DNA of 64,000 nt from Clostridiales bacterium. GTDB lineage: Bacteria > Bacillota > Clostridia > Lachnospirales > Lachnospiraceae. How positions within the stretch are numbered: the stretch's first letter is position 1; the number at the start of each line of letters is the position of its first letter. Below, piece by piece: positions 39,153 to 63,120 of this stretch. The position numbers were made by a program, and so were the translations under genes. The DNA is taken from contig JAAYPT010000072.1 in NCBI GenBank assembly GCA_012519695.1, forward strand, positions 1 through 64,000, given 5' to 3'. The notes under the pieces are model-generated. The model was given only the letters and a program-made list of their open reading frames with translations. It did not search any database and was not told where the DNA came from.

Positions 39153-39307
39153 CATAGGAATTTCCTATGACAGAACAAAGAGTCCGCTTGTCGGACTCTT
39201 TCGCGCCCGAGCGGTGTCGTTTACGACTAATTTCTTCTCCGCGAGGTGCGCTTCCTTAGCGGAGCGTTTTTAATGTAATAGGACGCAATTTCCTATTACA
39301 TTAAAAA
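39153..39307 (-). repeat. terminator-tail structured repeat, copy A (dapA leader)
   Basis: This element lies between the riboswitch terminator and dapA. In minus-strand order it has a 17-bp AT-rich hairpin (39291-39307 with 39267-39283, loop AATTGCG), a 6-bp GC hairpin (39259-39264 with 39237-39242, 16-base loop containing GCGCACC), then GTCGTAAACGAC and an 8-bp AGAGTCCG hairpin, ending near a CATAGGAA/TTCCTATG palindrome (39153-39169). The core 39171-39266 is nearly identical to 62716-62811. The outer A-tract is the terminator's U-tract. Confidence 0.8.
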
Positions 39308-39329
39308 GCCGACTCGCGACAGTCGGCTT
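39306..39329 (-). terminator. riboswitch-controlled terminator upstream of dapA
   Basis: AAGCCGACT pairs with AGTCGGCTT around a 6-base GC-rich loop, followed by TTTTTT on the minus strand. It lies about 50 bases after the lysine aptamer, as an expression-platform terminator. Confidence 0.85.
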
Positions 39330-39377
39330 AAAGATTCTAATACATGTGGAACTTCTCCACACTTTGTACATAAATCC

Positions 39378-39552
39378 TCGATAGCGCCCCATCTGCCTCT
39401 TCAACACGATGACAGTCATACAATTCTTCATCATATGCCCAAGAATAATTCCAACAGGAAAATCATTCTTTCGGCGTTCTTCCCTTTCCATTATCTTCTT
39501 CTGTGCCTGCCACATCCGATAACTTACTTATGAATCACGCAACCTCTATCTT
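39378..39552 (-). ncRNA. lysine riboswitch (L-box) of dapA
   Basis: On the minus strand the region opens with AAGATAGAGGTTGCG, continues with AAGTA and GAAAGGGAAGAACGCCGAA, and closes with GACTGTCAT...GGGGCGCTATC. These are the conserved blocks of the lysine aptamer (AUAGAGGUGCG, AGUA, GGGGA..CGCCGAA, GGCUGUC, GGGCUAUC). The opening GATAG pairs with the final CTATC as P1. A terminator follows and the next gene is dapA, so lysine should promote premature termination. Assigned from memory of the consensus; a covariance search would settle it. Confidence 0.85.
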
Positions 39553-39575
39553 GTATAATATTTTCATTTAAAAGT

Positions 39576-51346: not shown

Positions 51347-51410
51347 CTTATTCACTTTACTTACTCACTTTACTTACTCACTTTGCTTACTCATTTTACT
51401 GTTCATTTTA
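51347..51410. repeat. 13-bp tandem repeat, about five copies
   Basis: Units CTTATTCACTTTA, CTTACTCACTTTA, CTTACTCACTTTG and CTTACTCATTTTA, then a 12-base CTGTTCATTTTA, follow head to tail. The last unit includes the stop codon of the ABC-F gene. On the minus strand the repeat lies in the 5' flank of hflX. Copy number could vary between strains. Confidence 0.8.
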
Positions 51411-52943
51411 TAAACGCACGATATTTGTTTTTACTTTTTCCACAAAGGTTTTATCATGTTCCACCAGAATCATTGTGGGGCGATATTTTATTATCAGTTC
51501 CTCTAATTGTATTCTGGAAAAAATATCAATAAAATTAAGGGGTTCATCCCAAATATATACATGGGCATGGTCGCATAAGCTTCGTGCCAGCAGTACTTTT
51601 TTCTTCTGACCTTCCGAAAAATCTTCCATTCGTTTTTCAAAGTGTCCTCTGGCAAAGTCCATTTTCCGCAAAAATTGCTTAAATAATGTTTCATCCACCT
51701 TTTCTGCTACAATATAGTCTTGCATCTTTCCATGCAAATGGGAGGTATCCTGTGAAACATAGGAAATCTTAAGTCCGCTTGCTACTTCCAGCAATCCCGT
51801 ACTTTTTAACTGTTCTTTCCTTGTGGAAATTTCTTCTTGCTCTCTCAATTGTTTATCGGCTGCTTCTAATATTGCCTTAAGCACCGTAGACTTTCCACAG
51901 CCATTTTTTCCTTCTAATACCAGACACTCTCCCTGCCGCAACTGAAAAGATATCTTTGACTGAACTTCTTTTTCCCCATAATATAAGGCAAGATTCTTTG
52001 CTTCTATCAGCAAATCCTTATGGTGCTTTTCCTGTACCAGTCGAATATTTTCCTTGGTTTCCACATTTTTTAACAGTTTTGATTTTTCTTCCAGTTCCTT
52101 TTCTCTTCGGCGTTCCAGGTTTTTTCTGCGACTTTGCATTCGTCTTGACTTTTCGCCCACATACGCTCTGGTATCAATGGATTTTTCATACTTCAATGAC
52201 TTCTTTCCTATTTTGGTGGACTCCACTTCATCTGCCCAATTTCCTGCCTGTCTTGCTGCTACGGTGAGTCTTCGAATGTCTTTCTTTAATCTTTTGTTTT
52301 CCGCCAATTCAAAGGCATCCTGACGTTCTTTATTTTCCCACCAACTTGAAAAATTACCAGCCACAATTTCAATATTATTTTTATTGATGGACAGCACATG
52401 GTCAATACACCCATCTAAAAACGTCCGGTCATGGGATACTAAAATAAATCCTTTTTTCCGTTTTAAATAAGCGCAGACAATCGCTCTGGCTTCCATATCC
52501 AAATGGTTGGTGGGCTCATCAATTAACATAAAATGATTTTCCTTTAAAAATAATACTGCTAACAATACCTTTGTCTGTTCTCCATGACTTAAGGTATCAA
52601 AAGGACGAAACCACACATCTTCACTTCCCTGCAAATAAGACCATTCTCTGCACAGTTCCCAGAACTCATATTGGGGATATATTTCTTCTACCACCTCTAT
52701 GGTCTGTTTCGTTTTATCTTTTACTTCGTACGGAAAATAATCAAACGCTACACTTTGGGAAATAGTTCCCCGATATTCATATTTTTCCAAAAGCAAGTTC
52801 AAAAATGTGGTTTTTCCTCTTCCATTTCTTCCGATAAATCCTAACTTCCAATCTGTGTCAATCTGAAAAGACACATCCTCAAAAATATTTTCATAACTTC
52901 CTTCGTAATAAAATGTCAAATGACTTACATCTATTCTAGACAT
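51408..52943 (-). CDS. Lsa-type ABC-F ribosomal protection protein
   Basis: A 511-residue double-ATPase protein. It starts at ATG 52943 (SRIDVSHLTFYYEGSYENIFEDVSF), 10 bases after AAAGGAG. Walker A motifs are GRNGRGKTT (38-46) and GKNGCGKST; signatures are LSHGEQ and the unusual FSEGQKKK; Walker B is FMLIDEPTNHLD. The basic linker between the domains (about 190-300) fits the antibiotic-resistance domain. FQIDTDWKLGFIGRNGRGKTT and GNFSSWWENKERQDAFELAEN are characteristic of Lsa/CplR proteins, which displace lincosamides, streptogramin A and pleuromutilins from the ribosome. An attenuator-type leader supports antibiotic-inducible expression. Phenotype not demonstrable here. Confidence 0.88.
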   Translation of the reverse strand: MSRIDVSHLTFYYEGSYENIFEDVSFQIDTDWKLGFIGRNGRGKTTFLNLLLEKYEYRGTISQSVAFDYFPYEVKDKTKQTIEVVEEIYPQYEFWELCREWSYLQGSEDVWFRPFDTLSHGEQTKVLLAVLFLKENHFMLIDEPTNHLDMEARAIVCAYLKRKKGFILVSHDRTFLDGCIDHVLSINKNNIEIVAGNFSSWWENKERQDAFELAENKRLKKDIRRLTVAARQAGNWADEVESTKIGKKSLKYEKSIDTRAYVGEKSRRMQSRRKNLERRREKELEEKSKLLKNVETKENIRLVQEKHHKDLLIEAKNLALYYGEKEVQSKISFQLRQGECLVLEGKNGCGKSTVLKAILEAADKQLREQEEISTRKEQLKSTGLLEVASGLKISYVSQDTSHLHGKMQDYIVAEKVDETLFKQFLRKMDFARGHFEKRMEDFSEGQKKKVLLARSLCDHAHVYIWDEPLNFIDIFSRIQLEELIIKYRPTMILVEHDKTFVEKVKTNIVRL

Positions 52944-53202
52944 ATCCATCACACTCCTTTATGATGGCTGCCCCGTATTTCGACATACGTTCTGTTCTAT
53001 TTTTATCCTTTTTCATTTTATTGCACAACTTTGCCAAGTGCGTTTCCTTAGCAAAGTGTTTTGTATGCAATGGAACGCAATTTTCTATTGCATACAAAAA
53101 GAGATGTAAGAACTTCTTACATCTCTTTACTACTTCGTGATAAAAGATATTAGAATTTCCTGCCAAACGGGACATACCAATGTACTCCAACAAAGAGGGC
53201 AT
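52936..53202 (-). CDS. candidate upstream ORF in the lsa-type gene leader
   Basis: An open frame from ATG 53202 (or ATG 53175, SRLAGNSNIFYHEVVKR) runs through the attenuator hairpin and the structured repeat. It ends at TAG 52936-52938, overlapping the ABC-F start by 8 bases. GGAG lies 11 bases before 53202 and another 9 bases before 53175. Only the early part looks peptide-like; the rest is read from structured RNA, so a shorter functional leader peptide with ribosome stalling is also possible. Its role as a regulatory uORF is inferred from other ABC-F leaders. Confidence 0.35.
   Translation of the reverse strand: MPSLLEYIGMSRLAGNSNIFYHEVVKRCKKFLHLFLYAIENCVPLHTKHFAKETHLAKLCNKMKKDKNRTERMSKYGAAIIKECDGYV
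53028..53099 (-). repeat. terminator-tail structured repeat, copy C (ABC-F leader)
   Basis: A short copy of the element at 39153 holding only the two hairpins: 53084-53099 with 53059-53074 (loop again containing AATTGCG) and 53051-53057 with 53028-53034 (16-base loop ending AAGTGCGTTTCCTTA on the plus strand). Both stems have different bases from copies A and B yet remain paired. It begins at the U-tract of the attenuator terminator. Confidence 0.75.
53098..53128 (-). terminator. attenuator terminator in the ABC-F leader
   Basis: AAAGAGATGTAAG pairs with CTTACATCTCTTT (13 bp, 5-base loop) and is followed on the minus strand by TTTTTGTATG. It lies 155 bases ahead of the ABC-F start, inside its own transcript, so must be overcome for expression. 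Confidence 0.8.
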
Positions 53203-62617: not shown

Positions 62618-62634
62618 ACTCTGTATGTGCTCCT

Positions 62635-62852
62635 TTCCTATTGCATTATATAAAAGAATCCGCTTGTCGGGCTCTTTCGCGCCCGAGCGGTGTCGTTTAC
62701 GACAATTTCCTATTGCAGAACAAAGAGTCCGCTTGTCGGACTCTTTCGCGCCCGAGCGGTGTCGTTTACGACTAATTTCTTCTCCGCGAGGTGTGCTTCC
62801 TTAGCGGAGCGTTTTTTATACAATAGGACGCAATTTCCTATTGTATAAAAAA
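62635..62852 (-). repeat. terminator-tail structured repeat, copy B (ileS leader)
   Basis: This lies between the T-box terminator and ileS. It carries the 17-bp hairpin (62836-62852 with 62812-62828, loop AATTGCG), the CTCCGC/GCGGAG hairpin (62782-62787 with 62804-62809) and the AGAGTCCG module. The core 62716-62811 differs from copy A by one base noticed, but the 17-bp arms differ and stay complementary. The last module is duplicated in tandem (62655-62703 and 62724-62772). The total adds about 220 bases to the ileS mRNA. Confidence 0.85.
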
Positions 62853-62854
62853 AA

Positions 62855-63120
62855 CTCTGCCCTGTAAAAGGACAAAGCTTATAAATGCATTGTTACCACC
62901 TGTTACATTGTACTTAAGGTCACCCTTGCATACACGATTCCCATAACGGAGGAATTTCCGTCCGTACCTACTTGTGCCATATGGCAGGTTCAGCCGGCAA
63001 CTTGGAAGTGATGTTCCGGTATTCTCTACTAGTACCGGTTTCCACCCTCCCGGCTCTCTGAAACGTTTGATAACAGGAACCTTATCTGTTCCTGAATACC
63101 GTACTGTCTTCGTCATCGTC
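62855..63120 (-). ncRNA. isoleucine T-box leader of ileS
   Basis: On the minus strand: a Stem I with AGAGAGCCGG..GGGTGGAAACCGGT, a closing pair GGTATTC/GAATACC, and ATC at 63010-63012 in GAACATCACTTCC as the isoleucine specifier. The T-box CAGGTGGTAACAATGC follows, with TGGT to pair with the tRNA acceptor end, then a terminator CTTTGTCC..GGGCAGAG with a U-tract (62855-62877). Uncharged tRNA-Ile should favour the antiterminator and raise ileS expression. Confidence 0.92.

Follow-up and report, generated by a model that had tools for sequence, protein, structure and literature searches.

The window analyzed here is a 64,000-nt stretch from the start of contig JAAYPT010000072.1 of a Clostridiales bacterium (GenBank assembly GCA_012519695.1). 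In it, one structured repeat stands directly behind the terminators of three unrelated leaders, those of dapA, ileS and an Lsa-like ABC-F gene. The original prediction offered two readings of this placement: an element that targets terminator tails, or a functional module acting on transcripts that escape termination in regulated leaders. The question raised by the locus is which of the two applies. The features concerned are as follows.

39374-39556, minus strand: lysine riboswitch ahead of dapA (RF00168, 112.4 bits)
39308..39329, minus strand: host terminator hairpin of the lysine-riboswitch leader of dapA, landing site 1 (fold, -13.5 kcal/mol)
39177..39307, minus strand: full element copy 1 (BLAST, fold, covariance model)
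39267-39307, about 39203-39266 and 39177-39201, minus strand: parts of copy 1, namely H1 (left arm the terminator U-tract), H2/H3, and H4 (terminator-like hairpin)
39157..39176, minus strand: tail behind H4 of copy 1, TTTGTTCT-like, with a remnant like an H1 left arm (CATAGGAAA)
53099..53127, minus strand: host terminator hairpin of the leader of the Lsa-like ABC-F gene, landing site 3 (fold, -15.6 kcal/mol)
53024..53099, minus strand: copy 3, degenerate, with H1 and an H2-like hairpin, no H4 seen (61.3 bits; fold)
62853..62880, minus strand: host terminator hairpin of the ileS T-box leader, landing site 2 (fold, -13.4 kcal/mol)
62722..62852, minus strand: full element copy 2 (H1 62812-62852, H4 62722-62746)
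62653..62712, minus strand: second copy directly behind copy 2, 5'-deleted and partial (H3 and H4)
62634..62652, minus strand: remnant like a third H1 left arm (AATGCAATAGGAAA)

The covariance model and the folds agreed that the three copies are real, that all lie on the minus strand and that each begins in the T-tract of a leader terminator. In all three folds the terminator U-tract was paired as the outer left arm of H1, as had been predicted. Z-scores against dinucleotide shuffles were -6.88, -8.14 and -8.93 for the three window copies, with 0 shuffles folding as well. Copies 1 and 2 exceed chance because the unit recurs across the genome at up to 98% identity. When the window was scanned with Rfam at the gathering scores, the lysine riboswitch was the sole match; all others fell below gathering and none was credible as a known RNA family for the element. 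The T-box ahead of ileS was matched by RF00230 with 54.3 bits and an E-value of 4.6e-11, under the gathering score of 93. The gene behind copy 3 (51408-52943, minus strand, leader to about 53330) is an Lsa-like ABC-F ribosomal protection gene, whose leader terminator could be an attenuator. It scored 679.8 bits with NCBIfam ABCF_Lsa_all, not reaching the cut-off of 750, and 448.5 bits with ribo_prot_ABC_F, above the cut-off of 380.

Copies were compared by folding and by alignment. The order of parts was host hairpin with T-tract, H1, a middle domain H2/H3, terminator-like H4 and then often TTTGTTCT or TTTTTTAT. The ATAGGAAA core of H1 is conserved and the length of the H1 loop varies from 7 to about 50 nt; ATAGGAAA and GAAA were nearly invariant across subfamilies. 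H2 enclosed H3 in 14 of 24 folded sequences and a single bulged A was present in 9, the middle having been cut too short in three sequences. Across the 24 sequences, three pairs of H1 showed 3-4 pair types with 0 breaks. Five pairs were changed on both sides within the source genome, three of them in H1. Part of the H1 covariation could reflect correction of imperfect palindromes instead of selection on RNA. An H1-like motif followed H4 within 24 nt in 33/91 copies, a proxy count that includes orthologous copies of close genomes.

The two ends differ: by eye there were no terminal inverted repeats, the left end being T-tract plus ATAGGAAA and the right end H4 plus TTTGTTCT or TTTTTTAT. Both sides are flanked by a T-run. 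Beyond the T-run the common prefix averaged 0.914 against 0.762 when shuffled, a value reached by 180/1000 shuffles. A target-site duplication, hinted at by four copies (L016, L017, L198, L200), thus showed no general trend beyond the T-run.

Shortened forms, with H1 only or without H1, were common. Solo H1 palindromes lacking H2-H4 were also seen behind terminators (L104, L108, L115, L117-L119 and others); they may have arisen by deletion or be units in their own right. In the ileS leaders of relatives (L185, L188, L189) and at three loci of the source genome (L084, L109, L133), a longer segment took the place of H4 or lay just upstream of an H1. It bears a CCCCTCA...TGAGGGG-like hairpin followed by a short hairpin and a T-rich tail, and may represent an alternative 3' end. 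At terminator-like sites of genome G028 that contain no element motif (L408-L427), the T-run was followed by AT, GT or CT in 49/62, like the left arm of the element. Some of these sites may be decayed elements.

A census was made of the source genome (G000; 3.16 Mb, 111 contigs). BLAST gave at least 68 pieces of a dispersed repeat with 40 of 121 candidates scored. Covariance model R1, built from 16 copies, gave 142 rows with 150 of 1958 candidates scored, many of them opposite-strand echoes of the H1 palindrome. For the placement count 69 of the 142 rows were used; opposite-strand H1 echoes, copies without H1, copies cut by contig ends, weak rows and a few others (for example C101:38344, C107:6551, C95:108) were dropped. 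Many of the top copies lay at contig ends (for example L005, L007-L010, L012-L014 and L018-L020); contigs therefore end within the repeat, and the genome has at least as many copies as were counted.

Printed with their flanks, nearly all copies with H1 began in a T-tract behind a hairpin. A hairpin of -10 kcal/mol or lower ending within 2 nt of the T-tract was found for 62/69 H1-bearing copies, and for 16/391 control tracts (T>=5, both strands, in the window away from the copies; Fisher p 2.6e-53). The models and filters demand H1 and so favor T-tracts, though not upstream hairpins. Among the seven copies that had no strong hairpin, three contig-end copies share one weak hairpin (-5.1), two (L117, L099) appear by eye to have a terminator that the measure missed, and the remaining two are unexplained or weaker (L008, -1.5; L089, -8.0). 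The sequence of the upstream hairpin varies from copy to copy, and the hairpins therefore belong to the host.

Copies were not restricted to the 5' leaders of regulated genes. A crude measure based on ORFs placed 51/69 within 150 nt of where a same-strand ORF ends. This figure includes at least three miscounts, at the ileS leader, at the TPP leader and at one tRNA terminator, without which 48 remain. Across 80 loci of the source genome, a few of which adjoin, Rfam at gathering gave four leaders: one lysine, one TPP and two T-boxes. Leaders are undercounted in this way because the ileS T-box scores below gathering. tRNA genes were found at three of the 80 loci and stood directly upstream of the copy at two (L130, L136). 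Leaders carry copies because they end in terminators, and the presence of three such leaders in one window looks like a sampling effect.

An independent sample was drawn from other genomes. A pattern of 26 bases, derived from the 3' portion of a different subfamily, matched at least 119 stretches in named genomes, of which 80 loci were kept. Record titles were those of Lachnospiraceae (Blautia, Roseburia, Lacrimispora) and also carried the labels Clostridia, Eubacteriales, Clostridiaceae and Acetivibrio. H1 with T-rich and A-rich arms was present in 67 of 82 pattern matches. The 15 matches without H1 were mostly 5'-deleted in the bases shown, and at least three (L212, L278, L279) were cut by the end of the locus. 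Sixty-three distinct H1-bearing matches with enough upstream sequence were entered into the placement test. A hairpin of -10 kcal/mol or lower stood at the T-tract in 53 of these 63 external copies, which had been selected on their 3' end and filtered for a T-rich H1; by this measure the other 10 had no strong hairpin. The corresponding values were 37/383 for other T-tracts in the same loci and 5/64 for shuffled upstream sequences (Fisher p 5e-34).

The dapA and ileS leaders were compared across 29 genomes of the genus, the source genome included. The dapA terminator was present with no element at the same place in two genomes (G026 L144, G014 L157) and the ileS terminator in three (G026 L173, G025 L178, G022 L195). 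Different elements occupied the same terminator at dapA (L149, L155) and at ileS (L189, L198 and L200, of other subfamilies), and ileS L174 has at that terminator a relative of the window element with a different H1. Unlike elements were thus seen at one site in ileS L198 vs L200, in dapA L142 vs L149 vs L155 and in L331 vs L350.

Flanks of copies were then used to search for further orthologous sites. Ten flanks from genome G024 gave five readable sites (L328, L346, L340, L322, L331); L325 follows another element in a nested arrangement, and the alignments of the remaining four led to unrelated or rearranged loci. In the comparison with G017 and G028, an empty terminator was found for L328 (L363/L364) and, with a diverged terminator, for L346 (L351). 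For L322, the empty counterpart (L354) shows the hairpin but lacks a T-tract. Exact junctions are not readable because of the missing T-tract in L354 and the diverged terminator of L351. For L331 a different element stood at the same base in G017 and G028 (L349/L350). At that site one copy is present in G028 (L350) and two in tandem in the closely related G017 (L349), the two being identical except for the left arm of H1. The extra copy in L349 has a left arm that is unlike that of the first copy and in part mismatches its own right arm. Searches with 18 flanks from the source genome gave terminators without a full element for several (for example L012, L018, L023); the rest were too diverged or had no match.

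R1 matched 32 of 61 genomes, the source genome included; among 24 genomes of other families of the order only one matched. R2 rows numbered 148 in G024, 130 in G028 and 126 in G017, with up to 150 candidates scored and echoes possible. At least 65 distinct places were listed for G024 (counted by hand from the listings, as were the orientation counts given below), and three copies in this genome are identical (L066, L322, L325). In a sample of 200 genomes of the bacterial family, with up to 16 candidates scored per genome, 111 matched. Viral contigs gave 0 matches for two exact patterns. Similar sequence is carried by one Roseburia plasmid record. Sixteen phage-collection records matched; the 10 listed are from human feces, and three are unverified metagenome clones without annotation. 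Four external copies printed in this plasmid and phage-collection follow-up each stood, by eye, behind a terminator-like hairpin.

The repeat is short, non-autonomous and present in many copies, as a MITE is. The preferred reading, given a probability of about 0.83, is a short non-autonomous mobile element of about 120-170 nt that lands on intrinsic terminators in the sense orientation, the leader copies being ordinary landings. It rests on the observed placement, orientation, spread, architecture, and empty and differently filled sites. The element would insert into the T-tract right behind a terminator hairpin, and the host T-tract would become the outer left arm of H1. H4 with its T-rich tail would form a new landing site, giving rise to tandem arrays. 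The hairpin and T-tract may be recognized as a folded single strand or as a cruciform, and spread is probably by copy-and-paste, with a protein or RNP acting in trans.

Together, the placement and orientation of the copies, the empty sites and the signs of repeated insertion give strong support to the first alternative of the original prediction, an element aimed at terminator tails. The second is not supported: most copies stand at ordinary gene ends, and the dapA and ileS leaders occur without the element in several species. The covariance-model search that had been proposed for the genome and its relatives bore out the association with terminators (62/69 in the source genome) and not the link to leaders, the copies lying mostly at gene ends and few of them in leaders that Rfam recognizes. 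On the preferred reading, what stands in the leaders of dapA, ileS and the ABC-F gene has simply landed there and is not a regulatory layer.

An autonomous relative was sought among inspected copies (C55, C111, C90 and the H1-less matches), none of which bore an ORF of its own. The interval from H1 to H4 on C55 was rejected as a candidate since it is filled with ORFs resembling an ordinary operon; the stretches on C111 and C90 were rejected as showing no obvious mobile gene. Genome G024, which is 99% complete, had no match to RVT_1 (PF00078) at E <= 1e-10, two weaker candidates being present. Y1_Tnp (PF01797) had 0 matches at E <= 1e-5 in G024, G017 and G006. Neither protein is therefore required in G024, unless recently lost or too diverged. 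A broader reading takes the element as a large mobile-repeat family for which the terminator is both landing pad and own end, each insertion making the next site, and which is moved without a Y1 transposase and without a reverse transcriptase of the group II or retron type, perhaps by template switching alone. This is put at slightly less than an even chance.

Two mechanisms of movement were weighed. A reverse transcriptase like that of group IIC introns might act in trans on the element as on a bacterial SINE, the element RNA ending at the H4 U-tract and being copied into the T-tract behind a DNA hairpin. H4 would suit such a defined RNA 3' end, RVT_1 was found in 40 of 61 genomes (the source genome included), and the group IIC RNP target described in the available part of PMC10190682, a DNA stem-loop, spacer and T-rich IBS1/IBS3, is close to that of the element. 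The reading is nevertheless doubtful: G024 has no PF00078 match at the above threshold despite its 148 rows, 65 listed places and three identical copies, G036 has 16 R1 matches and no PF00078 match either, and five copies searched with Rfam at E <= 10 gave no group II intron match. No element was present at 16 RT or Y1 loci, which is weak evidence since chance predicts only one or two in 52 kb. Movement might instead be free of any enzyme of its own and occur by template switching during replication. The nascent strand, ending 3' in a run of A, would stall at the base of a terminator hairpin, switch to the T-run behind an H4 elsewhere, copy from H4 to H1, stall again and return. This needs neither RVT_1 nor Y1 and predicts the order hairpin, T-run, element, T-run, a single orientation, tandem arrays and mosaics such as L346. 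On contig C1 of G028, 41/44 listed copies, a few of them tandem neighbors, were co-oriented with replication, against 242/319 ORFs (p 0.003). In an unselected 400 kb the bias was weak (about 10/13), and only 2/5 printed element-bearing terminators were co-oriented; the terminator control, 42/67, counts two-way hairpins twice. As the strand bias is strong in the listed copies and weak in the unselected sample, it is only a hint. The near-invariance of ATAGGAAA and GAAA across subfamilies suggests recognition instead, and template switching is judged improbable to the same degree as the reverse transcriptase.

Two further explanations dispense with targeted mobility. Insertion could be random, with survival only behind terminators, where space is harmless; selection would then have produced the pattern, and the location of most copies of the source genome at gene ends agrees with this. 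Base precision is not expected from selection alone, however, and the hairpin foot lies within 2 nt of the T-tract in a constant orientation while other T-tracts seldom stand behind hairpins. This explanation is considered the least probable of all. A host function as backup terminator, insulator or processing module for read-through transcripts, those of attenuator leaders included, would fit the terminator-like H4, the covarying structure and a location suited to a second stop. Against it, orthologous terminators occur without the element, presence differs between relatives, many copies consist of H1 only or lack H4, and the majority stand at ordinary gene ends. It too is very unlikely.

A family of this kind would mean that mobile DNA uses terminators as structural targets in much of a bacterial family. 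It also accounts for a class of structured repeats between genes that may be taken wrongly for regulatory RNAs or riboswitch-leader parts, and serves as a warning that covariation beside a terminator does not make a leader element. The empty and differently filled orthologous sites provide a system for studying how DNA hairpins draw insertions and whether a transposase is needed for the spread of repeats.

No family landing behind terminators was found in the literature searched, and to that extent the original prediction of a placement without a described family stands; the targeting of a hairpin with T-rich DNA has a precedent in group IIC introns. Many natural group IIC intron targets are terminators. 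In the part of PMC10190682 that was available, the RNP of an E. rectale group IIC intron recognizes a DNA stem-loop, a spacer and T-rich IBS1/IBS3. The element shares with group IIC introns the target of DNA hairpin and T-rich stretch and the sense orientation, which makes its targeting logic plausible. Unlike these introns the element is far shorter, has no ORF, gave no Rfam group II match in five copies and occurs in G024 without RVT_1. REP/RAYT and IS200/IS605 systems have hairpin ends, follow a single-strand logic and insert in a fixed orientation on the 3' side of a short motif. The element differs from them in that its landing site is a terminator and in that G024, G017 and G006 have no Y1_Tnp. 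BOX, RUP and SPRITE of Streptococcus pneumoniae are short, intergenic, folded, high-copy repeats thought to be non-autonomous mobile elements, and BOX is modular (PMC3049150, available part). According to the same text SPRITE resembles a terminator, as does the H4 end of the element, and BOX and RUP have IS-like terminal inverted repeats, of which the element has none. That part of PMC3049150 does not report landing behind terminators for BOX, RUP or SPRITE, whereas the element does land there. As a short interspersed repeat the element is of a known kind; what is unusual is the absence of the usual mobilizers, the terminator as landing site and a landing site that the element makes itself.
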